A stretch of DNA of 33,773 bases from Clostridia bacterium (GTDB lineage Bacteria > Bacillota > Clostridia > Oscillospirales > Acutalibacteraceae), in the NCBI GenBank assembly GCA_017462405.1, contig JAFTRF010000082.1, positions 1 through 33,773 on the forward strand, in the 5' to 3' direction. Position numbers and translations under genes: made by a program. This document shows positions 3,442 through 29,219 of this stretch, in pieces (within the stretch, counting starts at the first letter, position 1; every line of letters starts with the position of its first letter). A model generated the notes under the pieces. The model saw only the letters and a list, made by a program, of their open reading frames with translations, was not told the origin of the DNA and did not search any database.

Positions 3442-4119
3442 TCAATCCAGCGGCTTTACCTGCTCAAACAAACAGCAGAAGCGGTCCTCCAGGACCCGGT
3501 CGATGTGGTAATGTCCGAAATACCATTTTCGGAAAGAGACCTTATTTTTGATGTCCTCCAAAAAGCGGGTAAGCACATCTTCGCCGTAATCCGCGGCAAT
3601 TTTTTGCTGTACGGAGGACGGCGCACAATGCGTGATGATATAATCCACCTGCCATACGGCCGAGGTCAGTGCTGCGACGGCATGGGCCATCTCGTCCGGG
3701 GAAGGTAATTCCTCTGCCCACCAGTTGATTCCGGCCGTCCGGCAGGCCTTGTCGTGCGAAGCGGCACCACCAAACGTAAACAATCGTTTTCCGTCGATTT
3801 CGTAAATCTGCCCCCGCATCAGATGATAAATGCGGTCGGATATTTTATGTGCCGTCCCGCCTCCGAACGGGACGGTTTCAAAAGTGCGGAGCAGGTCGAA
3901 GTTTTCGTGGTTGCCATCGACAAACAGGGTTGTGAAATTCTTTTTGTCCAGCCATTTCCGCCAGTAGTATTCTTCGCGGTCATTGTTCCATACACCGCCG
4001 AAATCCCCGCAGATGATGACATAATCCGTTTCGGCCAACTGCTTTTGCGCCGGAAATCGTCTGGTGTTTAATTTGGATACATCCGTCGGGATGTGTGTAT
4101 CACCGGTCACGTAGATCAT
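3442..4119 (-). CDS. Calcineurin-like metallophosphoesterase
   Basis: The 225-residue product has the full set of metal-binding motifs of the calcineurin-like phosphoesterase superfamily: GDTH (6-9), GDFGG (38-42), GNHE (69-72), THCAP with H164, and GHYH (202-205). These ligate a dinuclear metal centre that hydrolyses phosphate mono- or diesters. There is no signal peptide or membrane segment, so it is cytoplasmic. Relatives of this size are usually annotated only as metallophosphoesterases; the substrate (protein, nucleotide or RNA) cannot be read from sequence. It is a single-gene unit with its own promoter and the shared bidirectional terminator. The start codon is preceded by AAGGCGG on the minus strand and lies only ~14 nt after the expected transcription start. 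Confidence 0.88.
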   Translation of the reverse strand: MIYVTGDTHIPTDVSKLNTRRFPAQKQLAETDYVIICGDFGGVWNNDREEYYWRKWLDKKNFTTLFVDGNHENFDLLRTFETVPFGGGTAHKISDRIYHLMRGQIYEIDGKRLFTFGGAASHDKACRTAGINWWAEELPSPDEMAHAVAALTSAVWQVDYIITHCAPSSVQQKIAADYGEDVLTRFLEDIKNKVSFRKWYFGHYHIDRVLEDRFCCLFEQVKPLD

Positions 4120-4139
4120 GCTTTCACCGCCTTTGCTTC

Positions 4140-4168
4140 AGTATATCACATCGCTCCGGAAAAGTAAA
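4140..4168 (-). promoter_or_regulatory. Sigma-A promoter of the metallophosphoesterase gene
   Basis: Read on the minus strand, TTTACT (4163-4168) and TATACT (4140-4145) are separated by 17 bp. Transcription would begin near 4133 and leave a leader of only ~14 nt. The -35 box lies within 10 bp of the -35 box of the divergent spoVT promoter, so the two back-to-back promoters share upstream DNA. Confidence 0.6.
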
Positions 4169-4176
4169 TTCCGACG

Positions 4177-4205
4177 GTATAAATCTCCCGCGGTTACAGA
4201 TAATA
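4177..4205 (+). promoter_or_regulatory. Probable sigma-G (forespore) promoter of spoVT
   Basis: GTATA at 4177-4181 fits the sigma-G -35 pattern GHATR. GATAATA at 4199-4205 matches the -10 pattern CATNHTA except for its first base. The spacer is 17 bp. In Bacillus subtilis spoVT is transcribed by sigma-G in the forespore, so a sigma-G-like element is expected here. The assignment rests on pattern matching alone. Confidence 0.5.
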
Positions 4206-4240
4206 ACATCACAATTTGTAAATTAAGGAGATTTGTATAT

Positions 4241-4774
4241 ATGAAAGCAACCGGCATTGTCCGCCGCATCGACGATTTGGGGCGGATCGTCATCCCGAAG
4301 GAAATCCGCCGTACGCTGCGCATCCGGGAGGGAGATCCGCTTGAAATCTTCACCGACAACGACGGCGGGGTGATTCTGCGGAAATATTCCCCCATCGGGG
4401 AGATGCTTACCTTTGCTGCCCACTATGCGGAGGCGCTGAACCGGGCCTCCGGGATGGGTGTGCTCATCTGTGACCGGGATCATGTGGTCGCGGCGGCGGG
4501 CGTTTCCCGAAAGGAATATGTGGAACGTCGGGTCACACAGACGTTGGAGGAAATCATGGAGAGCCGTACCGCACGGATCCCCGGCAGTCAGGGGGCATTC
4601 CGGCCGGTGGAAGGCATTGACCGGGTGACGGAACTTGCGGTGCCGATCATTGCTGCGGGGGATGTTTCCGGTGCGGTGGTCATGCTGTCGGGCGAAACAG
4701 CCGGCGGGGATGCAGAGGTCAAACTGGCACAGACGGCGGCCGGATTTCTGGGCAGAGTCATGGAAAACGGATAA
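4241..4774 (+). CDS. spoVT: Stage V sporulation protein T, AbrB-type transcription factor
   Basis: The product has 177 residues, the usual length of SpoVT (178 in B. subtilis). Residues 1-52 form the AbrB/SpoVT swapped-hairpin DNA-binding domain, with the near-invariant stretch RRIDDLGRIVIPKEIRRTLR and then IREGDPLEIF. The rest is the GAF-like sensory domain typical of SpoVT. The family tunes sigma-G-dependent genes in the developing forespore, so the organism probably sporulates. The start at 4241 follows AAGGAG at 4225-4230; an upstream in-frame extension has no ribosome binding site. The gene stands alone between a sigma-G-like promoter and a strong terminator. Confidence 0.95.
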   Translation: MKATGIVRRIDDLGRIVIPKEIRRTLRIREGDPLEIFTDNDGGVILRKYSPIGEMLTFAAHYAEALNRASGMGVLICDRDHVVAAAGVSRKEYVERRVTQTLEEIMESRTARIPGSQGAFRPVEGIDRVTELAVPIIAAGDVSGAVVMLSGETAGGDAEVKLAQTAAGFLGRVMENG

Positions 4775-4989: not shown

Positions 4990-5073
4990 ATGAAAGAACT
5001 CATTTCACTATACGGGGGTACGGTACTGCTGATGAAGGAACTCATTTTGCTATATGTGGGTACGGTGCTGCTG
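4990..5073 (+). repeat. 42-bp tandem duplication at the 5' end of the polymerase gene
   Basis: Copy 1 is 4990-5031 and copy 2 is 5032-5073. They match at 36 of 42 positions and lie head to tail in frame. Each encodes a 14-residue unit beginning MKELI and ending GTVLL (12 of 14 residues identical). The copy starts coincide with ATG codons. Confidence 0.85.
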
Positions 5074-6183
5074 ATGTACTTGTCGCAGGTCTATGCACCG
5101 TCAACGGTACAGCGGAACGATGGACGCCTGTACCGGGATCCACCCGCACGGTGCCGGACAGATGTATTCATGCTGATCGTCATCGGCTGGATGGCGGGTT
5201 TTATGTTCCTGCGAACCTCATACAACGACACCCATAACTACATTCTGAATTTTCAACGGGCTAAAACCATTCCGGAATACCTGTCTTCACTGACGTGGGG
5301 AAGCTGGACCGATAACCCGCTGAGCAGCTTGTATACCAGCGTGATCCGGTCGTTTACGGACAATTATCACGTGTATTTTCTGTTTCCGGCATTGCTGAAC
5401 TGTTGTGCGGTCGTGCGGCTGTGCAAGCGGTATTCGGTGAATCCGGCATTTTCGATGGCGATTTTCTTTTCCATTGGTACCTACCTGCTGTGTACGGCGG
5501 CGCTGAAGCAATGCTGTGCCATCGGCGTACTGATGTTGGCACTGCCGTATGCCGTTGATAAAAAATACGGGCGATTTTATGCGCTGGTGGCAGTGGCGGT
5601 ATTGCTGCATACCTATGCGCTGATGTTTGCCATCGTGCCGTTTCTGAACGGGAAACCGTGGAGCAGGAAGACCTGGGTCGGACTTGCGGTGGTTTTGTTC
5701 TGCATGCTGACCTACAACTCAACGTTGGGTGTGATTATGGAACACCTCGGATCCATCGGCATTGATATCAGCGAAGGGGAACTGTTTGACGGCCACGGCA
5801 TCAACCCGCTGCGGGTAGTCGTGTACTGGACCCCGGCAGCGATTGCACTGATTTTCCGGGATCGTTTGTTCCGGGATTCCACTCCGGCAGAAGATCTGCT
5901 GGTCAATATCAGCATTGCCAGTGGGTTCATTCTGACCATCGGTCTGGCGCAGGCGGCCAATCTGTTTGCGCGTATGGCGGCTTATTTTGAGGTGGCGACG
6001 GTCATTGTGTTGCCGTGGATGGTCCGGAAGCTGTTTACCCGCAAATCGGCGCAGTTTGTCACGATTTGCGCGTCGGTGCTGTATTTCGGCTATTTCTTCT
6101 ACGAGAATGCCATCAATACGCAGTTTGAATATAACTACGGCGCAATTACGCTGTGGGAGTTTATCGGACAATTGTTCGTGTAA
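4990..6183 (+). CDS. EpsG/Wzy-type polysaccharide polymerase (multi-pass membrane protein)
   Basis: The 397-residue product is hydrophobic almost throughout, with about ten or more membrane spans. It has the EpsG-family layout: an early charged loop followed by YNDTHNYI..F at about residues 77-88, and a large loop near residues 245-270. EpsG-like proteins polymerise undecaprenyl-linked repeat units at the outer face of the membrane, and position as first gene of a polysaccharide operon agrees. The start at 4990 has AAGAGGA at 4976-4982. The next in-frame ATG at 5032 begins the second copy of a 42-bp duplication and has a poorer ribosome binding site. An O-antigen-ligase-like role is a less likely alternative. 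Confidence 0.75.
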   Translation: MKELISLYGGTVLLMKELILLYVGTVLLMYLSQVYAPSTVQRNDGRLYRDPPARCRTDVFMLIVIGWMAGFMFLRTSYNDTHNYILNFQRAKTIPEYLSSLTWGSWTDNPLSSLYTSVIRSFTDNYHVYFLFPALLNCCAVVRLCKRYSVNPAFSMAIFFSIGTYLLCTAALKQCCAIGVLMLALPYAVDKKYGRFYALVAVAVLLHTYALMFAIVPFLNGKPWSRKTWVGLAVVLFCMLTYNSTLGVIMEHLGSIGIDISEGELFDGHGINPLRVVVYWTPAAIALIFRDRLFRDSTPAEDLLVNISIASGFILTIGLAQAANLFARMAAYFEVATVIVLPWMVRKLFTRKSAQFVTICASVLYFGYFFYENAINTQFEYNYGAITLWEFIGQLFV

Positions 6184-7320: not shown

Positions 7321-8634
7321 ATGAGCCTTTATGAAAAAATCGTCCGCAGAGAAGAAAAGATTTCGCTGATCGGTCTGGGCTATGTGGGCATGCCGATTGC
7401 AGTGGCTTTTGCCCAAAAAGCGGATGTCGTCGGCTTTGACAACAATGCGGCCAAAATCGAACTGTACAAGAGCGGTATCGATCCTACCAACGAGGTGGGC
7501 AATGCGGTCATCGCCGCTACAACGGTGCATTTTACTTGTGACGAGACGGAACTGCGTAAGGCGAAATTCCACATTGTTGCCGTACCGACGCCGGTCAACG
7601 ATGACCACACGCCCGATCTGGGGCCGGTAGAGAGTGCCAGCCAGATCGTCGGCCGAAACCTGACCCGCGGCAGCATTGTCGTATATGAATCCACCGTCTA
7701 TCCCGGTGTGACCGAGGAGGTCTGTGTACCCATTCTGGAGCGGGAATCCGGTATGAAGTGCGGTGTGGATTTCAAGGTGGGCTATTCGCCTGAACGCATC
7801 AACCCCGGCGACAAGGTGCATCGGCTGGAAACCATCACCAAGATCGTGTCCGGCATGGATGCGGAAACGCTGGACACCGTTGCAAAGGTGTATGAGCTGG
7901 TGGTGGATGCAGGTGTGCATCGTGCGGAATCCATCAAGGTTGCGGAGGCGGCCAAGGTCATCGAGAACAGCCAGCGCGACATCAACATTGCATTCATGAA
8001 TGAACTGTCCATCATTTTCAACAAGATGGGCATTGATACCAAGGCTGTGCTGACAGCCGCCGGAACCAAGTGGAATTTCCTGAAATTTGTGCCCGGTCTG
8101 GTGGGCGGTCATTGCATCGGTGTGGATCCCTATTATCTGACGTACCGTGCAGAACAGCTGGGCTATCACAGTCAGGTCATTCTGGCAGGCCGACGCATCA
8201 ACGACGACATGGGGCGCTATGTGGCAGAGAATGTGGTAAAGAAAATCATTGCCGCCGATACGCCGGTGAAGCATGCGCGGGTAGCCATTCTGGGCTTTAC
8301 CTTCAAGGAAAATTGCCCGGATACCCGCAACACGAAGGTCATCGACATCTACCGTGAACTGCAGGAATACGGTATTACCCCCGTGGTAGCCGACCCGGCC
8401 GCCGATGCCGCCAAAGCCAAGCGGTTGTACGGCATTGATTTCGTGGATACCGCCGAAGTAAAAGATATGGATGCGGTGGTGCTGGCCGTGGCACACGAGC
8501 AGTTCAAGGGGCTGACCGTAACCGATTTCAACCGTTTCTATCATCCCGCCCGCACCAAGGTGCTGGTGGATGTCAAGTCGATGCTGGACAAGACCGCATT
8601 TGAGCAGGCCGGTTATGTCTACTGGAGGCTGTGA
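7321..8634 (+). CDS. Nucleotide sugar dehydrogenase, UDP-GlcNAc/UDP-GalNAc 6-dehydrogenase type (TviB/WbpO-like)
   Basis: This enzyme oxidises the C6 hydroxyl of a UDP-HexNAc to a carboxylate with two NAD+, giving UDP-GlcNAcA or UDP-GalNAcA. The 437-residue product has the NAD-binding motif GLGYVG (about 19-24). Its catalytic cysteine is C265 in GGHCIGVDPYY, followed by YLTYRAEQLGY and the RRIND stretch of the TviB/WbpO branch rather than the UDP-glucose dehydrogenase branch. The GAGGAG ribosome binding site overlaps the stop of the upstream gene. The epimerase that would complete UDP-GalNAcA synthesis follows at 8662. Substrate choice between GlcNAc and GalNAc is inferred from family resemblance. 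Confidence 0.9.
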   Translation: MSLYEKIVRREEKISLIGLGYVGMPIAVAFAQKADVVGFDNNAAKIELYKSGIDPTNEVGNAVIAATTVHFTCDETELRKAKFHIVAVPTPVNDDHTPDLGPVESASQIVGRNLTRGSIVVYESTVYPGVTEEVCVPILERESGMKCGVDFKVGYSPERINPGDKVHRLETITKIVSGMDAETLDTVAKVYELVVDAGVHRAESIKVAEAAKVIENSQRDINIAFMNELSIIFNKMGIDTKAVLTAAGTKWNFLKFVPGLVGGHCIGVDPYYLTYRAEQLGYHSQVILAGRRINDDMGRYVAENVVKKIIAADTPVKHARVAILGFTFKENCPDTRNTKVIDIYRELQEYGITPVVADPAADAAKAKRLYGIDFVDTAEVKDMDAVVLAVAHEQFKGLTVTDFNRFYHPARTKVLVDVKSMLDKTAFEQAGYVYWRL

Positions 8635-8661
8635 CGGCGCGTCCGATAAGGAGTAATTTTT

Positions 8662-9636
8662 ATGCATTATACAGAATTGAATTTTCCTGCTGACTCGCTG
8701 TTCCTTGTGACCGGCGGTGCGGGTTTCATCGGCTCGAATCTGTGCGAGGCGATTCTGAATATGGGACATCGTGTCCGCTGTCTGGACGATTTATCCACCG
8801 GCAAGCCGGGAAATGTGGAAATGTTCCGCAATCACCCCAGATACGAATTTATCCGGGGCGATATCAAGGACCTGGATACCTGTCTGAAAGCGTGTGAAGG
8901 GGTGGACTATGTCCTGAACCAGGCCGCGTGGGGCAGTGTGCCGCGTAGCATTGAAATGCCGCTGTTTTACTGCGCCAATAATATCACCGGTACGCTGAAT
9001 ATGCTGGAGGCTGCCCGTCGCTGCGGGGTGAAGCGTTTTGTTTATGCGTCGTCGTCTTCCGTATACGGCGATGAGCCCCGTCTGCCCAAAACCGAGGGCG
9101 TGGAAGGCAACCTGCTGTCGCCTTATGCGCTGACCAAGCGGTGTGACGAGGAATGGGCCAAGCAGTACACCCGCCATTACGGGCTGGAAACCATCGGTCT
9201 GCGTTATTTTAACGTCTTTGGTCGCCGTCAGACGCCGGACGGCGCGTATGCGGCGGTCATTCCGAAATTCATCAAGCTGTTGCTGAAGGGCGAGCGCCCG
9301 ACCATCAACGGCGACGGCAAGCAGAGCCGGGATTTCACCTACATCGAAAATGTGATCGAAGCCAACCTGAAAGCGTGTCTGGCACCATCGGAAGCCGCAG
9401 GACAGGCATACAATATCGCTTACGGCGGCCGGGAGTATCTGATCGACATTTACTACGGGCTGACCAAGGCACTGAATGTGGACATTGAGCCGAATTTTGG
9501 CCCCGACCGCGCAGGTGACATCAAGCACTCCAACGCCGATATTTCCAAGGCGCGTCGCCTGCTGGGGTACGATCCCCAGTGGGATTTTCAGCGCGGCATC
9601 GCGGCAGCGATTGCGTGGTACAAGGAGAATTTGTGA
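8662..9636 (+). CDS. UDP-HexNAc(A) 4-epimerase, WbpP/TviC-like SDR
   Basis: This extended short-chain dehydrogenase/reductase interconverts gluco- and galacto-configured UDP-HexNAc or its uronate using bound NAD. The 324-residue product has TGGAGFIG (residues 17-24), an SSSSVYG segment near 130-136 and the catalytic YxxxK at Y155/K159. The stretches NQAAWGSVPRSI and FGRRQTPDGAYAAVIPKFI are hallmarks of the WbpP/TviC group. The start follows AAGGAG in a 27-bp gap. Beside the dehydrogenase, it points to UDP-GalNAcA as a precursor, as in the Vi-antigen pathway. Confidence 0.9.
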   Translation: MHYTELNFPADSLFLVTGGAGFIGSNLCEAILNMGHRVRCLDDLSTGKPGNVEMFRNHPRYEFIRGDIKDLDTCLKACEGVDYVLNQAAWGSVPRSIEMPLFYCANNITGTLNMLEAARRCGVKRFVYASSSSVYGDEPRLPKTEGVEGNLLSPYALTKRCDEEWAKQYTRHYGLETIGLRYFNVFGRRQTPDGAYAAVIPKFIKLLLKGERPTINGDGKQSRDFTYIENVIEANLKACLAPSEAAGQAYNIAYGGREYLIDIYYGLTKALNVDIEPNFGPDRAGDIKHSNADISKARRLLGYDPQWDFQRGIAAAIAWYKENL

Positions 9637-10517
9637 TGTTTGATTACAGAAACATCATCCGGAGCAGAGAACTCCGGCTGAAGTTGATCAATTTGCTCCG
9701 TTTTATTCCGGATGCACCTTACCTGAAAATGGTGTATCGCATCAAAACCGGAAAAAAGTTGAATCTGAAAAATCCGAGAACCTTTTGCGATAAGCTCAAC
9801 TGGCTGAAACTGCACGATATCCATCCGGAATACACCCGATTGGTGGATAAGATTGAGGTCCGGGACCATGTCCGGGAAGTTCTCGGCGAAGATATCTGCA
9901 TTCCGCTACTGGGTGCATGGACGCATTACGATGAGATTAACTTCGATGCGCTGCCAGACCAGTTTGTACTTAAGTGCAACCATGATTCCGGATCGGTAAA
10001 AATCATTACTGATAAATCGACCATGGATCATGAGGTGCTGCGGGCGTTTTACGAGGGTCGGCTGAAGCAGAATCCTTATGTGTTGGGGCGAGAGTATCCG
10101 TACCGGGATGTAGCTCCCCGGATTTATGCAGAGAAATATGTCGTTTCGCAGGGACAGCGCGACATCAATGACTATAAGTTCTTTTGCTTTGATGGCAAGC
10201 CGGAACTCCTCTTTGTGGCAACGGAGCGAAGTACTGATTGCCGTTTTGACTTTTTTGATATGGAATTCCGACATTTGGATATTGTAAATATTCATCCGCA
10301 ATCGGATCATCCGGTGCAGAAACCGGAGACGTTTGAGCAGATGAAGCAAATCGCAGCGAAGCTGTCTGCCGGTATGAAATTTGTCCGGATTGATTTGTAT
10401 GAGATCGACGGAAAAGTCTGTTTCAGCGAGTATACAATGTATCATGCCGGAGGATTTTGGCCGATGCACCCGGAGGAATGGGAATATAAGATGGGCGATT
10501 TGATCCGATTGGACTAA
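9636..10517 (+). CDS. TupA-like ATP-grasp protein
   Basis: The 293-residue product belongs to the TupA-like ATP-grasp family found in capsule and teichuronopeptide clusters. Features visible are PYLKMVYRIKTGKKLNLKNPRTF..KLNWLK near the N-terminus, the nucleotide-binding stretch FVLKCNHDSGSVKIITDK (about residues 108-125), YAEKYV, DYKFFCFDGKP, and a C-terminal VRIDLYEIDGK followed by FSEYT, which holds acidic metal-binding positions of ATP-grasp enzymes. TupA of alkaliphilic Bacillus is implicated in attaching polyglutamate to polyglucuronate, so the protein may ligate an amino acid or peptide to a uronic acid carboxylate. Many relatives are annotated as glycosyltransferases without proof. The start overlaps the epimerase stop by one base (TGATG), with AAGGAG upstream. 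Confidence 0.8.
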   Translation: MFDYRNIIRSRELRLKLINLLRFIPDAPYLKMVYRIKTGKKLNLKNPRTFCDKLNWLKLHDIHPEYTRLVDKIEVRDHVREVLGEDICIPLLGAWTHYDEINFDALPDQFVLKCNHDSGSVKIITDKSTMDHEVLRAFYEGRLKQNPYVLGREYPYRDVAPRIYAEKYVVSQGQRDINDYKFFCFDGKPELLFVATERSTDCRFDFFDMEFRHLDIVNIHPQSDHPVQKPETFEQMKQIAAKLSAGMKFVRIDLYEIDGKVCFSEYTMYHAGGFWPMHPEEWEYKMGDLIRLD

Positions 10518-21362: not shown

Positions 21363-22520
21363 ATGAGCCGGATATTTTTATACGCCCACGGCGGCAGCGG
21401 CAACCATGGCTGCGAAGCCATTGTGCGCGCAACAGGCCAGCTGTTGAGCGGGCATGAACTGAAGCTGATTTCGGCCAATCCAGAAGAAGACCGGAAGTAC
21501 GGTCTGGCGGATGTAGCGGAGCTGATTCAGGATAAAAACGAGCCAGCCCGCTTGTCGCTGGATTTCGTGAAGGCCTATGCCGCGCTGAAGCTGCGGAAAG
21601 ACTTCATCCCGATGGAGAAACTGCAATACAAGACTGCCTTTGACCGGATGGGCAAAAACGACATTGCCTTGTCCATCGGCGGTGACAACTACTGCTATGC
21701 GGATGTTTACAAATACACCATGTTCCATGAAATTGCCAAAGCCCGTGGCGCAAAAACGGTGCTGTGGGGATGCTCTGTGGAACCGGATGTGGCGGCTCAG
21801 CCGGAGATTGCAGCAGATCTGGCAAAATACGACCGGATTACGGCGCGGGAAAGCATCAGCTATGAAGCATTGAAGGCGGTCAACCCCAACACGGTGCTGG
21901 TAGCAGACCCAGCATTTGTGCTGGAAGCCAGCGCATGTGCATTGCCGGAGGGCTTTGTACCCGGACAGACCGTGGGCATCAATCTCAGCCCGATGGCTAT
22001 GGAACGGGAGTCCGTGCCGGGGATGGCATTCACAAACTACAAAAATCTGATTGAATGGATCATTCAGAATACGCACTTGCAGGTGGCACTGATTCCGCAC
22101 GTGGTGTGGGCAAGCGGTGATGACCGGGTGCCGCTGCAGCGGCTGCATGAATGCTTCGCAGATACCGGACGGGTGTGCATGGTGACGGACCGGAATTGCA
22201 TGGAGTTGAAGTATATCATTTCGAAGTGCCGGTTCTTTATCGGTGCCCGTACCCATTCCACCATTGCGGCCTATTCTTCGTGCGTACCGACGCTGGTACT
22301 GGGGTATTCGGTGAAATCCAGAGGGATTGCGCGGGATATCTTCGGCACGGAGGAAGGGTATGTGATCCCGGTACAGAAGCTGAAAGGCAAGCATGCGCTG
22401 GCGGCGGCCTTTGCAGGGATGATTTGCCGGGAGGACGACATCCGGAAACATCTGACGGATGTGATGCCGGAGTACCTGCAGCGGGCGCAGACGGCGGCGG
22501 TTATTGCGGGGTTGGAGTAA
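21363..22520 (+). CDS. Polysaccharide pyruvyltransferase family protein
   Basis: The 385-residue product carries the polysaccharide pyruvyltransferase fold, with HGGSGNHGCEAIV at the N-terminus (about 9-21), SIGGDNY near 104-110 and the C-terminal GARTHSTIAAYSSCVPTLVLGYS region. Family members use phosphoenolpyruvate to put a pyruvyl ketal on a sugar, giving negative charge and often a site for S-layer-type protein binding. The ATG at 21363 was chosen over a TTG at 21357. The gene lies 6 bp after the last GT2 gene. Some relatives in gut bacteria are of uncertain activity. Confidence 0.85.
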   Translation: MSRIFLYAHGGSGNHGCEAIVRATGQLLSGHELKLISANPEEDRKYGLADVAELIQDKNEPARLSLDFVKAYAALKLRKDFIPMEKLQYKTAFDRMGKNDIALSIGGDNYCYADVYKYTMFHEIAKARGAKTVLWGCSVEPDVAAQPEIAADLAKYDRITARESISYEALKAVNPNTVLVADPAFVLEASACALPEGFVPGQTVGINLSPMAMERESVPGMAFTNYKNLIEWIIQNTHLQVALIPHVVWASGDDRVPLQRLHECFADTGRVCMVTDRNCMELKYIISKCRFFIGARTHSTIAAYSSCVPTLVLGYSVKSRGIARDIFGTEEGYVIPVQKLKGKHALAAAFAGMICREDDIRKHLTDVMPEYLQRAQTAAVIAGLE

Positions 22521-22523
22521 ATC

Positions 22524-24050
22524 ATGAAACAAAATCAGCTTAAAGCAGGCGCAATTATTTCATACATCAATTTGCTGATCGGAAGTATTCTCCCTTTTAT
22601 TTATACACCGATTATGCTCCGTATGTTGGGACAGGCCGAATATGGATTGTACGGCATTGCAGGATCTGTTATGGGCTATATTGGCCTACTGAACTTTGGT
22701 ATTGGAGGTACAATTGTCCGCTATCTGTCGAAATATCGCGCAGAAGGAAACCGCGAACAAGAGGCACGGGTTGCAGGATTGTTTATTAAAATATATACCG
22801 TAACATGCATCTTGATTTTGATTGCCGGGTGTATTTGTACAGCGAATGTACAGATTTTTGACCGGTCATTAACGGTACAAGAATTGGAGACATTACGGGT
22901 TCTTGTCCTTTTGATGACATTAAACACAGCTCTTTTTTTACCCTTCAGTGTCTTTAATTCTATTGTGATTGCATACGAGCGATACATTTTTAATAAATTG
23001 GTGAGTGCTATATCCACAATCGTGGCACCAATGTTAAATCTGGCATTGCTGTTCTGTGGTTTTGGTTCGGTAGGATTGGTTATCAGTTCGACAATCATGC
23101 ATGTGATCACCTACGGAATTTATACCTACTATGCATTATGTGTATTAAAAGTGCGTCCAAGTTTTCAAAAAGCGGAACAGGGACTTTTAGGAGAAATTCT
23201 GCGTTTTTCGGCATTTGTTTTTCTTGCAAGTATTGTCGATGTACTGTATTGGACAACGGATAAATTAATTATTGGTTGGGCAAAAGGTACAGAAGCAACG
23301 GCGGTCTATAATATTGGTGCATCATTCAATGGATATATTACAGCAATTTCTTCTGCAATCAGTGGATTATTGGTGCCCAAATTAACCAAGATGGTTGTGG
23401 AGCATGCCCCTAAAACAGAATTTACAAGAATATTTGTAAAGATAGGGCGACTGCAATTTATTCTTATTTCCTTTATTGTATCAGCTTTTGTTGCATTTGG
23501 ACGCCAGTTTATTTCACTTTGGGCGGGTCCGGAATATAGCGAGGCATATTATGTTGCTTTGTTTGTGATGATTCCCGTAACCGTCCCACTGATTCAAAAT
23601 ACCGGACTCAATATCTTGTACGCATTGAATAAGCATAAATTCCGATCCGTTGTATATTCGCTGGTAGCGATACTGAATGTTTTGCTGACCTTTTGGTGGG
23701 TGGAATCCAATGGTATTATTGGGGCCGCAATGGCAACATGTCTGGCATATGTACTCGGCAATATATTGATTATCAACTGGTATTATCATCGGAAAATAGG
23801 CATTGACATTCCATTGTTCTGGAAGAATATTTTGAAAATGAGTCCGGTAATGGTAATTATGGGAACGGCAGCTTTCTTTGTATTGGATGCATTTTCTGTT
23901 GACAGCTGGGCGATTTTTTTCACAGCAGCAGGCATATATACGATAGTGTATGCGATATTGTCGTATTGCTTCATGATGAATGACTATGAAAGGGATATCA
24001 TTAAGACCCCGGTATTGAAGATACTCAGAAAATTCAGGCTTATTCATTGA
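22524..24050 (+). CDS. Wzx-type flippase of the MOP superfamily
   Basis: The 508-residue product has about 12-14 membrane spans and the N-terminal pattern of Wzx/RfbX flippases (AGAIISYINLLIGSILPFIYTPIMLRMLGQAEYGLYGIA). Such proteins move undecaprenyl-linked repeat units across the membrane for polymerisation. GGAG at 22514-22517, just before the previous stop, is its ribosome binding site. Like the acyltransferase, the gene is markedly AT-rich against its neighbours, a common pattern for serotype-specific Wzx and Wzy genes. Confidence 0.9.
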   Translation: MKQNQLKAGAIISYINLLIGSILPFIYTPIMLRMLGQAEYGLYGIAGSVMGYIGLLNFGIGGTIVRYLSKYRAEGNREQEARVAGLFIKIYTVTCILILIAGCICTANVQIFDRSLTVQELETLRVLVLLMTLNTALFLPFSVFNSIVIAYERYIFNKLVSAISTIVAPMLNLALLFCGFGSVGLVISSTIMHVITYGIYTYYALCVLKVRPSFQKAEQGLLGEILRFSAFVFLASIVDVLYWTTDKLIIGWAKGTEATAVYNIGASFNGYITAISSAISGLLVPKLTKMVVEHAPKTEFTRIFVKIGRLQFILISFIVSAFVAFGRQFISLWAGPEYSEAYYVALFVMIPVTVPLIQNTGLNILYALNKHKFRSVVYSLVAILNVLLTFWWVESNGIIGAAMATCLAYVLGNILIINWYYHRKIGIDIPLFWKNILKMSPVMVIMGTAAFFVLDAFSVDSWAIFFTAAGIYTIVYAILSYCFMMNDYERDIIKTPVLKILRKFRLIH

Positions 24051-24062
24051 TGGAGTGAAAAT

Positions 24063-25229
24063 ATGAAAATATTATGTGCCATGGATATCTGCACTGGCTG
24101 TGGTGCGTGTGCGCAGATCTGCCCGAAAAAATGCATTGATATGATACCGGATGCCGAAGGTTTTTTGCGTCCGGTCATCCGGGAGGCGGAGTGTATTCAT
24201 TGCGGGCGATGCCGGAAAGTCTGTCCGCTCTGTACACCGCAGAGCAAACCGGATACGCAACCCGTTGCCTATGCTGCCATCAATACCGACGAAACTACAC
24301 GAATGAACAGCACCTCCGGTGGGGTATTTACCCTGCTGTGCCAATGGGTGCTGGAGCGGGGGGGTGTGGTGTTCGGCGCCGCGTACGATGTGGATTTCCG
24401 GGTGATGCATTGCCGTGTGGATAACTTGTCGGATCTGCATCGTCTTCGTGGTGCCAAATATGCGCAAAGCCGTATCGGAGAGACGTTCGCCGAAGCAAAA
24501 CAACTCCTGCGGTCGGGCCGGTATGTGCTGTTTTCCGGTACACCGTGCCAGATCGGCGGATTGCGCAGTTATCTGGGACGCGAAGAAGAACGGTTGATTC
24601 TGGTGGATCTGATTTGTCACGGTGCGCCATCACCGAAGGTCTGGCAGCATTACATTGACCATCGGTGTGATCGGGATGCGTCCGGTCAGCGGCCGGAACA
24701 AATCAACCTCCGGAGTAAAGTGACCGGATGGCCACGCTATTCCATCCGGTTTGAATATCCGGATGGAACAGTGTACTCTGCGCCCAACGGACAGGATCCG
24801 TATTTGAAGGGATTTATTGCAGATCTGTATCTGCGCCCCTCGTGCTATGCGTGTGCGTTCAAAGGAATGGCACGTGCAAGCGACTTTACCTTGGGTGATT
24901 ACTGGGGTGTCTGGGGACAGATGCCGGAATATCATGACGGCAAGGGAACGTCGCTGGTGCTTCTGCACACCGGAAAAGCAAAAACTCTTTGGGCGGAATT
25001 GTCGTCCCGGATGAAATATGGCGAAGCGCCGGTTTCGGCTGCCATCGGGGGAAATCCGTCTGCGGTGACTTCTGCACCGTACAATGAGCGGCGTGCGCAA
25101 TTCTTCTGCAGATATGAAGCGGAGGATTTTGAAGCGCTGGTAGAGGAACTTTGCCCACCACCGGTGGAGCAAAAGCCATCATTGGTACGGCGGATTGTCC
25201 GAAAGGTGCGTAGGATGCTGAAACGGTAA
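24063..25229 (+). CDS. FrhB-like protein: two 4Fe-4S clusters plus coenzyme F420 hydrogenase/dehydrogenase beta-subunit domain
   Basis: The 388-residue product begins with two ferredoxin-type motifs, C10-x2-C13-x2-C16-x3-C20-P and C44-x2-C47-x2-C50-x3-C54-P, enough for two 4Fe-4S clusters. It continues with the FrhB N- and C-terminal domains: TSGGVFTLLCQWVLERGGVVFGAAYD near 82-107, FSGTPCQIGGLRSYL, LVDLICHGAPSPKVW, and YACAFKGMARASDFTLGDYWG. Members of this group recur in polysaccharide operons of anaerobic gut bacteria together with pyruvyltransferases, but their reaction is unknown; there is no other sign of F420 here. GGAG at 24053-24056 supports the start. It is the last gene before the operon terminator. 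Confidence 0.85.
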   Translation: MKILCAMDICTGCGACAQICPKKCIDMIPDAEGFLRPVIREAECIHCGRCRKVCPLCTPQSKPDTQPVAYAAINTDETTRMNSTSGGVFTLLCQWVLERGGVVFGAAYDVDFRVMHCRVDNLSDLHRLRGAKYAQSRIGETFAEAKQLLRSGRYVLFSGTPCQIGGLRSYLGREEERLILVDLICHGAPSPKVWQHYIDHRCDRDASGQRPEQINLRSKVTGWPRYSIRFEYPDGTVYSAPNGQDPYLKGFIADLYLRPSCYACAFKGMARASDFTLGDYWGVWGQMPEYHDGKGTSLVLLHTGKAKTLWAELSSRMKYGEAPVSAAIGGNPSAVTSAPYNERRAQFFCRYEAEDFEALVEELCPPPVEQKPSLVRRIVRKVRRMLKR

Positions 25230-25236
25230 ATATCAG

Positions 25237-25308
25237 GTGTGCCGCTTCCGGTACACAAGGGAAATTTAAAGATTTTTTCGCCGCCCGCTGATCCGGGCGG
25301 CATTTTTT
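25237..25308 (+). terminator. Double-hairpin terminator of the exopolysaccharide operon
   Basis: A first 8-bp stem with a CTTC loop (25237-25244 with 25249-25256) follows the last stop codon. The second stem (GCCGCCCG at 25280-25287, CGGGCGGC at 25294-25301) closes a six-base loop and leads into six Ts at 25303-25308, a typical intrinsic terminator. It separates the biosynthesis genes from the Ig-like/BY-kinase unit. Confidence 0.85.
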
Positions 25309-25431: not shown

Positions 25432-26331
25432 ATGAAAGAATTCTGGAAACAATGCAAGGCATGGCTGAAGCCCGGCAATCTGATTTTGCTGGGTCTGATC
25501 GTTGTGTGCTTGCTGGTATACAAAGGGTATCAACGACTCGACCAGTTGTGGACCGACCGGACACCGCCGGTGATTACCGTTACCATGCCGGTGGCGGAAG
25601 TCTCGGTAAAGGATGCGGACGGCGCACTGCTGCAGGGGATCACCGCCGCCGATGAAACGGACGGCGACGTGACGTCCTCAATGATCGTGGAGTCGGTGAT
25701 GCTGCTGGATACGACCGGTCGGGCAGAGGTACGCTATGCGGCCTTTGATCGATCCGGCAATGTGGCGAAAGCGACGCGGGAGGTACGGTTCACCGACTAT
25801 ACCCGGCCGGAATTTACACTGAACGCACCGTTGCTGTATGTCCACGGCGTTGCCTTTGATGTACTGCGTGATCTGGGTGTACAGGATGTGGTAGACGGCG
25901 ATTTGCAGCACCGCATCAAGGCGACCTCTGTGGACGGGGAGTCCATCACCACCCAAGGTACCCACATGGTGCAGTTTCAGGTCACGAATTCGCTGGGGGA
26001 TACCGTGAAGCTCAGTCTGCCGGTAGAGGTATATGCTGCCGGTGCCTACAATGCCAGGCTGACGCTGACGGACTATCTGGTGTATCTGCCGAAGGGCGGT
26101 ACATTCGATGCCGGAAGCTACCTCAAGGAGTTTATTGTGGGCGAGGAAATCACGGATTTGCAGGGCGGCAGCCGGAGCGGCTTTACGGCAAAGATCTCCG
26201 GACAGCCGGATATGCAGAACCCCGGTGTCTATGCGGTGGATTACCGCATTACCTGGCAGAAAAATACAACGTCATCCATCCGTCAGGAATACACCGCGTA
26301 TTCCCGGCTGATTGTGATTGTGGAAGGATAA
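25432..26331 (+). CDS. Membrane-anchored protein with Ig-like (DUF5011/HYR-like) repeats
   Basis: The 299-residue product has a short basic cytoplasmic start, one membrane span at about residues 16-31, and then an extracytoplasmic part. Residues 44-125 show the pattern of bacterial Ig-like repeats of the DUF5011 kind: TPPVITV, then GITAADETDGDVT, then AAFDRSGNVA. A second, weaker repeat (TRPEFTL, then VVDGDLQ, then TNSLGDTV) spans about 126-205, and a third region follows. Such domains bind sugars or proteins outside the cell. Heading the unit that encodes two BY-kinases, it may be a structural or adaptor protein of the assembly machinery (inference). I do not recognise a named family. Confidence 0.7.
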   Translation: MKEFWKQCKAWLKPGNLILLGLIVVCLLVYKGYQRLDQLWTDRTPPVITVTMPVAEVSVKDADGALLQGITAADETDGDVTSSMIVESVMLLDTTGRAEVRYAAFDRSGNVAKATREVRFTDYTRPEFTLNAPLLYVHGVAFDVLRDLGVQDVVDGDLQHRIKATSVDGESITTQGTHMVQFQVTNSLGDTVKLSLPVEVYAAGAYNARLTLTDYLVYLPKGGTFDAGSYLKEFIVGEEITDLQGGSRSGFTAKISGQPDMQNPGVYAVDYRITWQKNTTSSIRQEYTAYSRLIVIVEG

Positions 26332-26335
26332 TACC

Positions 26336-27781
26336 ATGGAACAGAAAAGACATTCGCAGGAAGGCGGAGGGCTTCTGCCGTTTGACCCCATCGTGCTGAT
26401 TCTGGATGTGGCAAAAAAATGGCTGGTGATCATGCTTGCGGCGCTGGTCATCGGTGTGGGCGCATATATCGCGACCGATGCCGGCTACCAGCCGATGTAC
26501 CGTACCGGTGCGACCTTTGTGGTGACGTCACGGGGCAGCTCTTCGACCATCTACAACAACCTGTCGTCGGCCAGTTCCGTAGCATCGGTCTTTACCGAAC
26601 TGCTGAACAGTTCGCTGATGAAAAAATACATCATGGAGGAGATGGGTGTGAGCAGCCTGACCAGCACCATCTCGACACAGGTCATCCCGGATACCAACCT
26701 GATCGTTATGGATGTGACGGCACAGGATCCGCGGGAGGCCTTTCTGGTGGCGCGCACGCTGATTGAACACCACGAAAAGCTGACCTATCAGTTTGCGGAG
26801 GGTATCGTGATGGATGTGCTGCAGGCACCGACCGTGCCCCGCGCCCCGTTTAATTACACCGATGCCGCCGGACAGATGAAGAAAATGGCGATGCTGGGTG
26901 CATTGGCGGCCATCGTTGTGCTGACGCTCCTGTCGTGCATGAAGGATACCGTACGAAGCCGTCAGGAGGCGGAGGACAAGCTGGATTGTGCGTATCTGAG
27001 TGAACTGCCGCATGAAAACAAATACAAGACCGTACAGGCATTTCTGCGCCGCCGGAAAACCAGCATTCTGATGACCAACCCGGCGACCAATTTCCGTTTT
27101 GTGGAATCGGTGCGGAAATTGCGGCACCGTGTAGAGCAGCAGATGAAGCACGACAAGGTGCTGATGGTGACCAGCTTGCTGGAAAACGAGGGCAAATCTA
27201 CGGTGGCGGTCAATCTGGCACTGGCGATGGCACAGAAAAAAGAGCGGGTTCTGCTGATTGACTGTGACCTGCGGAAACCGGCGCTGCAGGCCGTACTGGA
27301 GCACCGGAACTTTGAGCGCGGTGTGGCAGACCTGCTGCAGGGACAGGGTACCCCCGAAGATGCGGTCATCCGTTACCGGGATACCAATATGGATCTTCTG
27401 CTGACCCGGCGCGCAGAGCGCGATGCCGGTGATCTGATTACCTCCCGCCGGATGCAGGCGCTGCTGTATTGGGCACGGGCGAATTACGATTTTGTGGTGC
27501 TGGATCTGCCGCCGATGACGGCTGCACTGGATGCGGAAGGCATGTCCATGTGGGCCGATGCCGGACTGCTGGTCGTCAGTCAGAATATGGCCAGAGCATC
27601 TGCACTGAACAAGGCCATCGCTGCGCTGGAGCGGGGCAAGAGCCGTTTGCTTGGCTGTGTGCTGAACAATGTACGCAGCACGACACTGTTTTCCGGCGAC
27701 AGCACCGGCTACGGTGGCTATGGCTACTATGGCCATTACGGTGCCTACGATGCGGAACGCGCCGACGAACCGATGGAATAA
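26336..27781 (+). CDS. Wzz-domain/BY-kinase fusion (capsular tyrosine kinase), Walker A variant
   Basis: The 481-residue product joins a Wzz chain-length domain (spans near 28-48 and 183-203, with an extracytoplasmic loop between) to a cytoplasmic bacterial tyrosine kinase domain. Walker A is ENEGKST at 283-289, in place of the usual PGEGKST but keeping K287 and S288. Walker A' has D309 and D311 in LLIDCDLRKP, and Walker B has D390. The tail is rich in tyrosine (six Tyr in the stretch starting at STGYGGYGYYGHYGAYDAE), the expected autophosphorylation cluster. The ATG at 26336 follows AAGGA at 26324-26328. Fusion of both domains resembles proteobacterial Wzc, whereas most Firmicutes split them into CpsC and CpsD. 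Confidence 0.88.
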   Translation: MEQKRHSQEGGGLLPFDPIVLILDVAKKWLVIMLAALVIGVGAYIATDAGYQPMYRTGATFVVTSRGSSSTIYNNLSSASSVASVFTELLNSSLMKKYIMEEMGVSSLTSTISTQVIPDTNLIVMDVTAQDPREAFLVARTLIEHHEKLTYQFAEGIVMDVLQAPTVPRAPFNYTDAAGQMKKMAMLGALAAIVVLTLLSCMKDTVRSRQEAEDKLDCAYLSELPHENKYKTVQAFLRRRKTSILMTNPATNFRFVESVRKLRHRVEQQMKHDKVLMVTSLLENEGKSTVAVNLALAMAQKKERVLLIDCDLRKPALQAVLEHRNFERGVADLLQGQGTPEDAVIRYRDTNMDLLLTRRAERDAGDLITSRRMQALLYWARANYDFVVLDLPPMTAALDAEGMSMWADAGLLVVSQNMARASALNKAIAALERGKSRLLGCVLNNVRSTTLFSGDSTGYGGYGYYGHYGAYDAERADEPME

Positions 27782-27794
27782 GGAGGCGGGCGAC

Positions 27795-29219
27795 ATGGAA
27801 TACGAAGACAGAGGACATGATAAAATTGACCTGCAACCGTTGCTGCGGGGCGTTCTGAACATGATGCGCCGCCTGTGGCTACTGGGATTGATCCTGGTTG
27901 TGGTGTGCAGTCTGACGCTGGGCATGATGCAGAAGCGGCAATACAGCCCGGTGTATCAGGCATACGCATCGTTTACAGTGCGGGTGAAAAATCCGCTGTA
28001 CTCCGGCGTTTCGGTATACAATGAAAAAACGGCTGCTGTAATGGCGAAGACTTTCCCGTCGATTCTGACCAGCGGCATTTTGCAGAAGCGGGTCATGGAG
28101 GAACTGAACACGACAGAAACGCCGGTCATTGCGGTTTCGGCGACCTCGTCCGCCAGCATTCTGACCCTGCGGGTCACAAACCGGGATCCGCAGCAGGCAT
28201 ACCGGATTCTGCAGGCGGTGATTGCATGCTACCCGGACATTGCGGAACTGGTGGTCGGCCCGACGGAGCTGGTGATGCTGGATGAAAGCGGCATCCCTTC
28301 GGCACCTGTCCAGTCGTTCAGCTATCGTCCGCATCTGATCAAGGGCGCGGCGATCGGCGCAGCGCTGTGGATGGTGCTGGTCGTACTGCTGATGCTGATC
28401 AAAAATACGGTACGGGACGAAGATGACCTGAAAAAGGTGCTGAATGTGCCGTGCTTCAGCGCTGTCCCGGCGGTGCGGCTGCCCCGTCGGATCGCCTGCC
28501 CGCTGCTGAACGGACGCAGCTCGACCCGGACCGGCGGCTTTGCGGAATCGGTGCGGCTGATGCGCCTGCGCGTGGAAAAAACGCTGGAGGATGCGGGCAA
28601 AAAGGTCATGCTGGTATCCAGCGCCATTCCCGGTGAGGGCAAAACCACGACCGCAGTCAATCTGGCCATTGCGCTGGCCCAGAAGGGCAAGCGGGTGGTG
28701 CTGGTGGACCTGGATCTGCGGCATCCCTCGGTGGTGCGTGCGCTGAACAGCCGCACGGCCCCGCTGACCAACACCAACAGCGTGGTTACGTATCTGGGCG
28801 AACAATGCACCGCGGATGCACTGCTGCAGGAAGTGGGTACGCCGAATCTGTGTGTGATTTCCGGCGGTACCGGTGCCAAGGTGGAGTATACGGCGAAGCA
28901 TTACCGTCGGCTGGAGACGCTGGTCGGCGAACTGCGGACGCGTTTTGACTACGTGCTGCTGGATACGCCGCCGTGTGCATTGCTGGCAGATGCCGCCGAG
29001 GTGGCCGGGCTGGCTGAATGTGGCCTGCTGGTAGTTCGTCAGGATTTCGCCGGACGCGAGCGGATTCTGGATGGTGTACAGCGGCTCAGCGATGCCGGAC
29101 TGCCGTTGCTTGGATGCGTGATGAACTATGTTCAGCGCAATGCAGCCGGTGGCTACGGGTATGGCTACGGTTATGGTTACGGATATGGCTACGGCACCTA
29201 CGGACAGAAAAAAGACTGA
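27795..29219 (+). CDS. Wzz-domain/BY-kinase fusion (capsular tyrosine kinase), canonical Walker A
   Basis: The 474-residue product has the same layout as its upstream neighbour: membrane spans near 32-52 and 185-207 around an extracytoplasmic Wzz-type loop, then a kinase domain. Walker A PGEGKTT lies at 279-285, Walker A' D305 and D307 in LVDLDLRHP, and Walker B D390 in LLDTPP. The C-terminus is a run of GY dipeptides (encoded by 29151-29204) ending GTYGQKKD, the likely phosphorylation cluster. AAGGAGG near 27780 with ATG at 27795 supports the start; an upstream in-frame extension lies in the previous gene. Sequence identity to the first kinase looks moderate, so it is an old duplication or a heteromer partner. 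Confidence 0.9.
   Translation: MEYEDRGHDKIDLQPLLRGVLNMMRRLWLLGLILVVVCSLTLGMMQKRQYSPVYQAYASFTVRVKNPLYSGVSVYNEKTAAVMAKTFPSILTSGILQKRVMEELNTTETPVIAVSATSSASILTLRVTNRDPQQAYRILQAVIACYPDIAELVVGPTELVMLDESGIPSAPVQSFSYRPHLIKGAAIGAALWMVLVVLLMLIKNTVRDEDDLKKVLNVPCFSAVPAVRLPRRIACPLLNGRSSTRTGGFAESVRLMRLRVEKTLEDAGKKVMLVSSAIPGEGKTTTAVNLAIALAQKGKRVVLVDLDLRHPSVVRALNSRTAPLTNTNSVVTYLGEQCTADALLQEVGTPNLCVISGGTGAKVEYTAKHYRRLETLVGELRTRFDYVLLDTPPCALLADAAEVAGLAECGLLVVRQDFAGRERILDGVQRLSDAGLPLLGCVMNYVQRNAAGGYGYGYGYGYGYGYGTYGQKKD
29151..29204 (+). repeat. GY-dipeptide coding repeat at the kinase C-terminus
   Basis: A near-perfect six-base tandem repeat (GGCTAC/GGTTAT variants) encodes Gly-Tyr repeated about eight times. 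Synonymous changes between units show it is kept at the protein level. Tyrosine clusters at this position are the autophosphorylation sites of BY-kinases. Confidence 0.85.

Follow-up and report, generated by a model that had tools for sequence, protein, structure and literature searches.

We found that the FrhB-family gene closing an exopolysaccharide operon in a 33,773-nucleotide stretch of clostridial DNA (the window) very likely encodes the functional partner of the polysaccharide pyruvyltransferase (PSPT) of the same operon, and that its product is probably independent of F420. Acting together, PSPT and FrhB may form a lactyl ether on the polysaccharide; we put the chance of this reading at about even, and both the product and the enolpyruvyl intermediate are what we infer.

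Operon structure

FrhB closes an exopolysaccharide operon of the Gram-positive type whose genes all lie on one strand; the operon contains an EpsG polymerase, a UDP-glucose dehydrogenase, an epimerase, about ten glycosyltransferases, PSPT, Wzx and FrhB, together with a TupA-like ATP-grasp gene and an acyltransferase. The features that concern us are as follows.

4990..6183 (+), EpsG-family polymerase (Pfam PF14897, 6.4e-32)
7321..9636 (+), UDP-glucose/GDP-mannose dehydrogenase and NAD epimerase, nucleotide-sugar genes (Pfam)
21363..22520 (+), PSPT of the R-T-H active-site type, the proposed partner (PF04230, GT-B fold, motif)
22524..24050 (+), Wzx flippase, between PSPT and FrhB (Pfam PF01943, 5.3e-22)
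24063..25229 (+), FrhB-family protein with iron-sulfur clusters and a presumed flavin, proposed to reduce an enolpyruvyl ether to a lactyl ether (Pfam, AlphaFold2 model, PDB matches)
25280..25301 (+), intrinsic terminator closing the operon 3' of FrhB (8 GC pairs, then ATTTTTT)

The gene order PSPT-Wzx-FrhB was common in the Bacillota neighbourhoods. An earlier note on this DNA had called the FrhB-like protein unusual in an exopolysaccharide operon; this did not hold, because 43 of 148 related genomes have a FrhB match.

The FrhB-family protein

The open reading frame at 24063-25229 (+) is intact, starts with ATG and encodes 388 amino acids; it is the single FrhB gene in its own genome. Both FrhB domains (PF04422/PF04432) scored above the curated Pfam cut-offs, FrhB_FdhB_C with 65.5 bits (E=6.5e-18, cut-off 23.3) and FrhB_FdhB_N with 27.5 bits (E=3.5e-6, cut-off 22), which places the protein in the FrhB_FdhB family. 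An N-terminal 2x[4Fe-4S] ferredoxin domain was recognised as Fer4_7, also above its curated cut-off (E=2.2e-9). The following sites were located in the gene.

24090..24122 (+), first ferredoxin-type motif, C10-x2-C13-x2-C16-x3-C20 (translation; 99-100% conserved)
24192..24224 (+), second ferredoxin-type motif, C44-x2-C47-x2-C50-x3-C54 (translation; 99-100% conserved)
24309..24323 (+), STSGG motif, residues 83-87, a probable flavin contact suggested by conservation
24546..24854 (+), C162, C185, C261 and C264, ligands of a probable third 4Fe-4S cluster (100% conserved)

Conservation was read from an alignment of 72 sequences, 71 relatives and the window protein. The eight ferredoxin cysteines were kept at 99-100% wherever the domain is present, and the four core cysteines were kept in all sequences, the window protein included; S85 and G86 were invariant, with S83 at 97% and G87 at 96%. 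Loss of cysteines in close homologues, which the earlier note had named as the finding that would speak against it, did not occur. The core cysteines probably hold a third cluster, as in FrhB.

The AlphaFold2 model had a mean pLDDT of 91.7. Its best PDB match was 8riu_B (Z 25.2 over 304 residues), followed by Fsr (Z 22), HCAR (Z 18.4, at 15% sequence identity) and FrhB (Z 17-18). All top matches were FrhB-family proteins, namely F420-reducing CODH and Fwd subunits, Fsr, HCAR and FrhB, after which the scores dropped clearly; FrhB, Fsr and the F420-reducing subunits were matched with Z 17-25 over 230-304 residues. Two complete 4Fe-4S motifs and an FrhB C-terminal fold had been read from the sequence before, and both stand: the motifs are full, the Pfam scores pass the cut-offs and the model matches FrhB-family structures. 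Within the known FrhB family, the window protein is most aptly seen as a variant with a new function.

Probable independence of F420

The annotation suggests an F420-dependent oxidoreductase, and the best structural matches are indeed F420-reducing subunits. The archaeal F420-binding subunits FrhB, FpoF and Fsr have the fold, the core cysteines and the N-terminal ferredoxin domain in common with the window protein, but the latter comes from a host group with no F420 pathway, stands in no hydrogenase or sulfite reductase context and lies far below the FpoF equivalog cut-off (33 bits against 475). CofD was above its cut-off in none of the 148 relatives, and both CofD and CofG were absent from the own genome as assembled (72% complete), so that the absence of F420 pathway genes already noticed for the window extends well beyond it. 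With this pathway absent, the "F420" label is misleading, and we consider F420 dependence scarcely credible.

Other members of the family work without F420. HCAR and BciB (F-DVR), with the same fold as the window protein, are both FrhB-family flavo-iron-sulfur enzymes fed by ferredoxin. BciB, long annotated as frhB, is a FAD/Fe-S enzyme of the same fold that uses ferredoxin to reduce the C=C of a vinyl group, as an 8-vinyl-to-ethyl reductase (PMC4836224). Both differ from the window protein in having a chlorophyll(ide) substrate and no pyruvyltransferase partner.

Linkage of FrhB and PSPT genes

In the sample of 148 related genomes, FrhB was matched 52 times, a count that includes the own genome, and PSPT 128 times. 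A PSPT gene was found within 5 kb of 41 of the 52 FrhB genes, on the same strand in all 41 cases, while uniform placement would give about 0.1. PSPT was present in 38 of 40 genomes with FrhB against 41 of 109 without it (p=4e-11). As a control we took flippase genes; of the 150 listed, about 9 (about 6%, counted by eye) had a PSPT no more than 5 kb away. Co-residence in polysaccharide loci therefore does not explain the linkage. The genome-wide co-occurrence analysis with pyruvyltransferases that the earlier note had proposed thus came out positive, and a lack of statistical co-occurrence, which would have spoken against the note, was not seen. Its remark that a pyruvyltransferase sits in the operon and that the pairing recurs is borne out by these counts and by the fusions and re-pairings described below.

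The same was seen in 79 loci from named genomes, which span many phyla and, being the closest relatives of the query, are a non-random sample: in 66 of them FrhB had a same-strand PSPT at most 5 kb away, including 10 fusions, and the loci often had the window's order PSPT-Wzx-FrhB. Carriers of the trio include Intestinibacter bartlettii, Thermoclostridium caenicola, Bacteroides finegoldii and Pseudobutyrivibrio. The nucleotide-sugar genes around the pair differed from locus to locus. PSPTs without FrhB were common and stood in varied contexts, which indicates that PSPT can act alone and is useful without FrhB.

Two other candidates for the linked gene were rejected. A nitroreductase was present in 115 of the 148 relatives, with none listed within 5 kb of PSPT (by eye). 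Wzx lies between the two genes in the window, but it is PSPT to which FrhB is fused, and the flippase control was low.

Some single loci depart from the common arrangement. The own genome has a second PSPT, of the S-F-H type, near a contig end (contig C229, 351-1211), with no FrhB seen there. In Ruminococcus albus 7 (pRUMAL02), the ferredoxin domain is naturally split off: it is missing from FrhB, and the gene directly after FrhB encodes a 4Fe-4S dicluster. A plasmid of Pseudomonas sp. MPC6 carries a relative of the E. coli O58 FrhB subfamily (see below) with no PSPT or polysaccharide genes nearby, which suggests a different role for that subfamily. FrhB relatives are also encoded in phage records (MT835622, MT836044, MT837642 and others, "Bacteriophage sp." gut contigs), which are probably bacterial polysaccharide loci misfiled as phage.

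Fusion and exchange of partners

Fusions of FrhB and PSPT were found in both domain orders. Changes between the fused and separate states were counted by parsimony on maximum-likelihood trees made by a quick method, irrespective of branch support, and came to at least 8 on the FrhB tree and at least 6 on the PSPT tree. By these counts the number of independent fusions is at least 6-8. The class of the PSPT partner (R-x-H or S-F-H) required at least 12 changes on the FrhB tree but a single one on the PSPT tree. Fusion and re-pairing on so many occasions point to direct functional coupling of FrhB and PSPT.

Strict co-evolution of the two proteins was not supported. In a mirror-tree comparison the FrhB and PSPT distances correlated weakly (r=0.11, with 69 of 2000 permutations as high), which counts against the model, although partner swapping would produce the same result. 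Four loci in Oscillospiraceae-type genomes (L085, L092, L094 and L099) contained PSPT-FrhB fusions of about 770 amino acids with no recognised polysaccharide genes around them.

The proposed partner pyruvyltransferase

PSPT starts with ATG at 21363 and matched PF04230 with 87.9 bits (E=1.4e-24, cut-off 25.3); its model matched GT-B enzymes in Foldseek. Ketal pyruvyltransferases normally make ketals, and to our knowledge release of an enolpyruvyl product by the PF04230 family has not been described. The window PSPT shares PF04230, the GT-B fold and the R-x-H motif with the ketal enzymes CsaB, WcaK and Pvg1p; unlike them it is paired with FrhB, and it fell below the CsaB and WcaK equivalog cut-offs (70.6 against 213 bits and 35 against 399 bits). 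Its R296-T297-H298 motif was invariant in 11 window-type PSPT sequences, and this Arg-x-His aligns with modelled PEP contacts of Pvg1p (PMC6801904). We considered loss of the PEP-binding Arg (S-F-H) as a mark of FrhB-linked PSPTs and rejected it; FrhB is paired with PSPTs of the S-F-H as well as the R-x-H type, and the motif in the window is R-T-H.

Probable co-occurrence with lactyl ethers

The lactyl-ether hypothesis was set down before the enterobacterial sequences and the O58 match were examined, and the comparisons that follow agree with it. FrhB or PSPT genes taken from gut anaerobes served as DNA queries against 5,426 E. coli genomes. One query matched, through 56 bases in PSPT, and led to the O58 locus; the other queries gave nothing. 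In this O-antigen cluster, labelled O58 at NCBI, PSPT is directly followed by FrhB, and rmlBDAC and manC/cpsG (rhamnose and mannose genes) and an O-acetyltransferase are also present. We take the O58 antigen, like that of S. dysenteriae 5, to contain 3-O-[(R)-1-carboxyethyl]-L-rhamnose. A second E. coli O type (seven genomes, strain PS10-3, NZ_CP096837, being an example of the type) carries the same PSPT/FrhB pair, and its sugar genes fit the backbone of the Salinivibrio and S. dysenteriae 10 polysaccharides. In one or two enterobacterial cases, then, lactyl ethers seem to accompany the FrhB-PSPT pair. On the matching backbone, Salinivibrio has Man4Lac and S. dysenteriae 10 has Man4,6Pyr (PMC8466920), a lactyl and a pyruvyl group replacing each other on one mannose.

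The O58 pair and the window pair belong to the same two families and lie in Wzx/Wzy polysaccharide clusters, with the two genes adjacent in O58, but the O58 FrhB forms a separate, distant subfamily whose members are 22-27% identical to those of the window's group. One of its ferredoxin motifs is degenerate, so that the domain is reduced and the N-terminal cluster ligands are partly kept, and the PSPT motif is RMH against RTH in the window. Because of this distance, a lactyl product for the window is argued by analogy. A Pseudobutyrivibrio plasmid was found to carry two PSPT/FrhB pairs; this genus is close to Butyrivibrio strains that have lactyl ethers in their exopolysaccharide.

Klebsiella provides a further comparison. 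Capsule types K8, K22, K37 and K66 have PSPT genes yet no pyruvate in the capsule (PMC4616057). The K22 capsule contains 4-O-[(S)-1-carboxyethyl]-GlcA, and K37 has the same sugars (PMC7246685). Among 79 types, the survey recorded 35 pyruvyltransferases, one "coenzyme F420 hydrogenase" and two nitroreductases (PMC4616057). The ratio of 35 pyruvyltransferases to one such "hydrogenase" indicates that ketals do not need FrhB. The K66 capsule also has lactyl-GlcA.

Proposed reaction and alternatives

For a PEP-using transferase and a reductase acting on one group, the simplest chemistry is enolpyruvyl transfer followed by reduction of the C=C bond. The vinyl reduction by BciB offers a precedent for the second step within the FrhB family. 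We propose that FrhB would be a ferredoxin-fed, F420-independent flavo-iron-sulfur reductase acting directly on the product or intermediate of PSPT. PSPT would add the enolpyruvyl unit of phosphoenolpyruvate to one sugar hydroxyl in the lipid-linked repeat unit, or alternatively would stop at the oxocarbenium/enol-ether stage without closing the ketal. Electrons would pass from reduced ferredoxin to the two N-terminal clusters, then to the core cluster and to FAD in FrhB, both the flavin content and the electron donor being inferred; FrhB would then reduce C=CH2 to CH-CH3, giving a 1-carboxyethyl (lactyl) ether, and Wzx would flip the lactyl-decorated repeat unit. The earlier note had left open a reductive or oxidative step or an electron-transfer role; a reduction tied to the pyruvyl group is the part that fits, and it may be narrowed to the formation of a lactyl ether.

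The proposed logic is that of MurA/MurB, where enolpyruvyl transfer from PEP is followed by flavin-dependent reduction to a lactyl ether. Neither window protein has a MurA or MurB Pfam match (they belong to PF04230 and PF04432), and the expected acceptor and site is the polysaccharide repeat unit, unlike the UDP-MurNAc synthesis of MurA/MurB.

Three other explanations have to be weighed against lactyl-ether formation. PSPT could make an ordinary pyruvate ketal while FrhB separately reduces the same residue, for example a keto sugar or an unsaturated one, and so provides the diol to be pyruvylated. The Arg-x-His of window-type PSPTs, with its alignment to modelled PEP contacts of Pvg1p (PMC6801904), together with the GT-B-like fold, would allow ketal formation with an independent role for FrhB, and tight linkage and fusion are also expected if both enzymes act on one residue. 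However, the nucleotide-sugar genes near the pair vary by locus and the pair recurs with two PSPT classes, which suggests that the shared element is the PEP-derived group and not one sugar; Klebsiella ketal types are moreover almost entirely without FrhB (PMC4616057). We therefore regard this explanation as unlikely.

Reduction of another PSPT-derived acid, giving a related ether, we hold to be distinctly improbable. Such ethers, of 2,4-dihydroxypentanoic acid, exist in O antigens, but PMC10609480 reports them from Providencia only; and while the PEP-binding Arg varies among PSPT subfamilies (S-F-H or R-x-H), the window PSPT is of the conventional Arg-x-His type. Somewhat lower still we rate the idea that FrhB makes no product itself and serves the operon only as an accessory electron carrier or a redox sensor. 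It would agree with the ferredoxin-like domains and with the separate, adjacent 4Fe-4S gene of R. albus 7, but the residues of the FrhB core are invariant, as are the four additional cysteines, and repeated fusion to one transferase family is unexpected for a general carrier or sensor.

Lactyl-ether formation by the pair may represent a general two-enzyme route, composed of a PF04230 enolpyruvyl transferase and an F420-independent FrhB-family flavo-Fe/S reductase, to which we give slightly less than an even chance. With the same reservation, it would be a previously unrecognised route found in Bacillota, Bacteroidota, Spirochaetota, Pseudomonadota and E. coli O-antigen loci. In the openly accessible literature we found no functional assignment for FrhB/F420 with pyruvyltransferase, O antigen or lactyl, and no genes named for making polysaccharide lactyl ethers; subscription papers may contain such a proposal. 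Lactyl ethers are a common decoration, present as antigenic components in many O antigens and capsules and in many exopolysaccharides of the gut or rumen. If the proposal is true, a fixed gene pair would let them be predicted from genomes, the widespread and misleading annotation "coenzyme F420 hydrogenase" would be corrected, and evolution would have solved the MurA/MurB reaction a second time, with unrelated families.

Other features of the window

A SpoVT-type regulator (4118-4774, +) lies directly upstream of the operon and suggests sporulation- or stress-linked control. The TupA-like ATP-grasp gene (9579-10517, +) is of the teichuronopeptide type and may join a uronic acid with an amino acid; a P. 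distasonis locus with the same PSPT/FrhB pair also has an "ATP-grasp fold amidoligase". Just past the operon terminator we found duplicated fused co-polymerase kinases, two tandem overlapping genes (26318-27781 and 27669-29219, +) each composed of a Wzz/CpsC-like N-terminal region and a BY-kinase (CpsD/Wzc-like) C-terminal ATPase.
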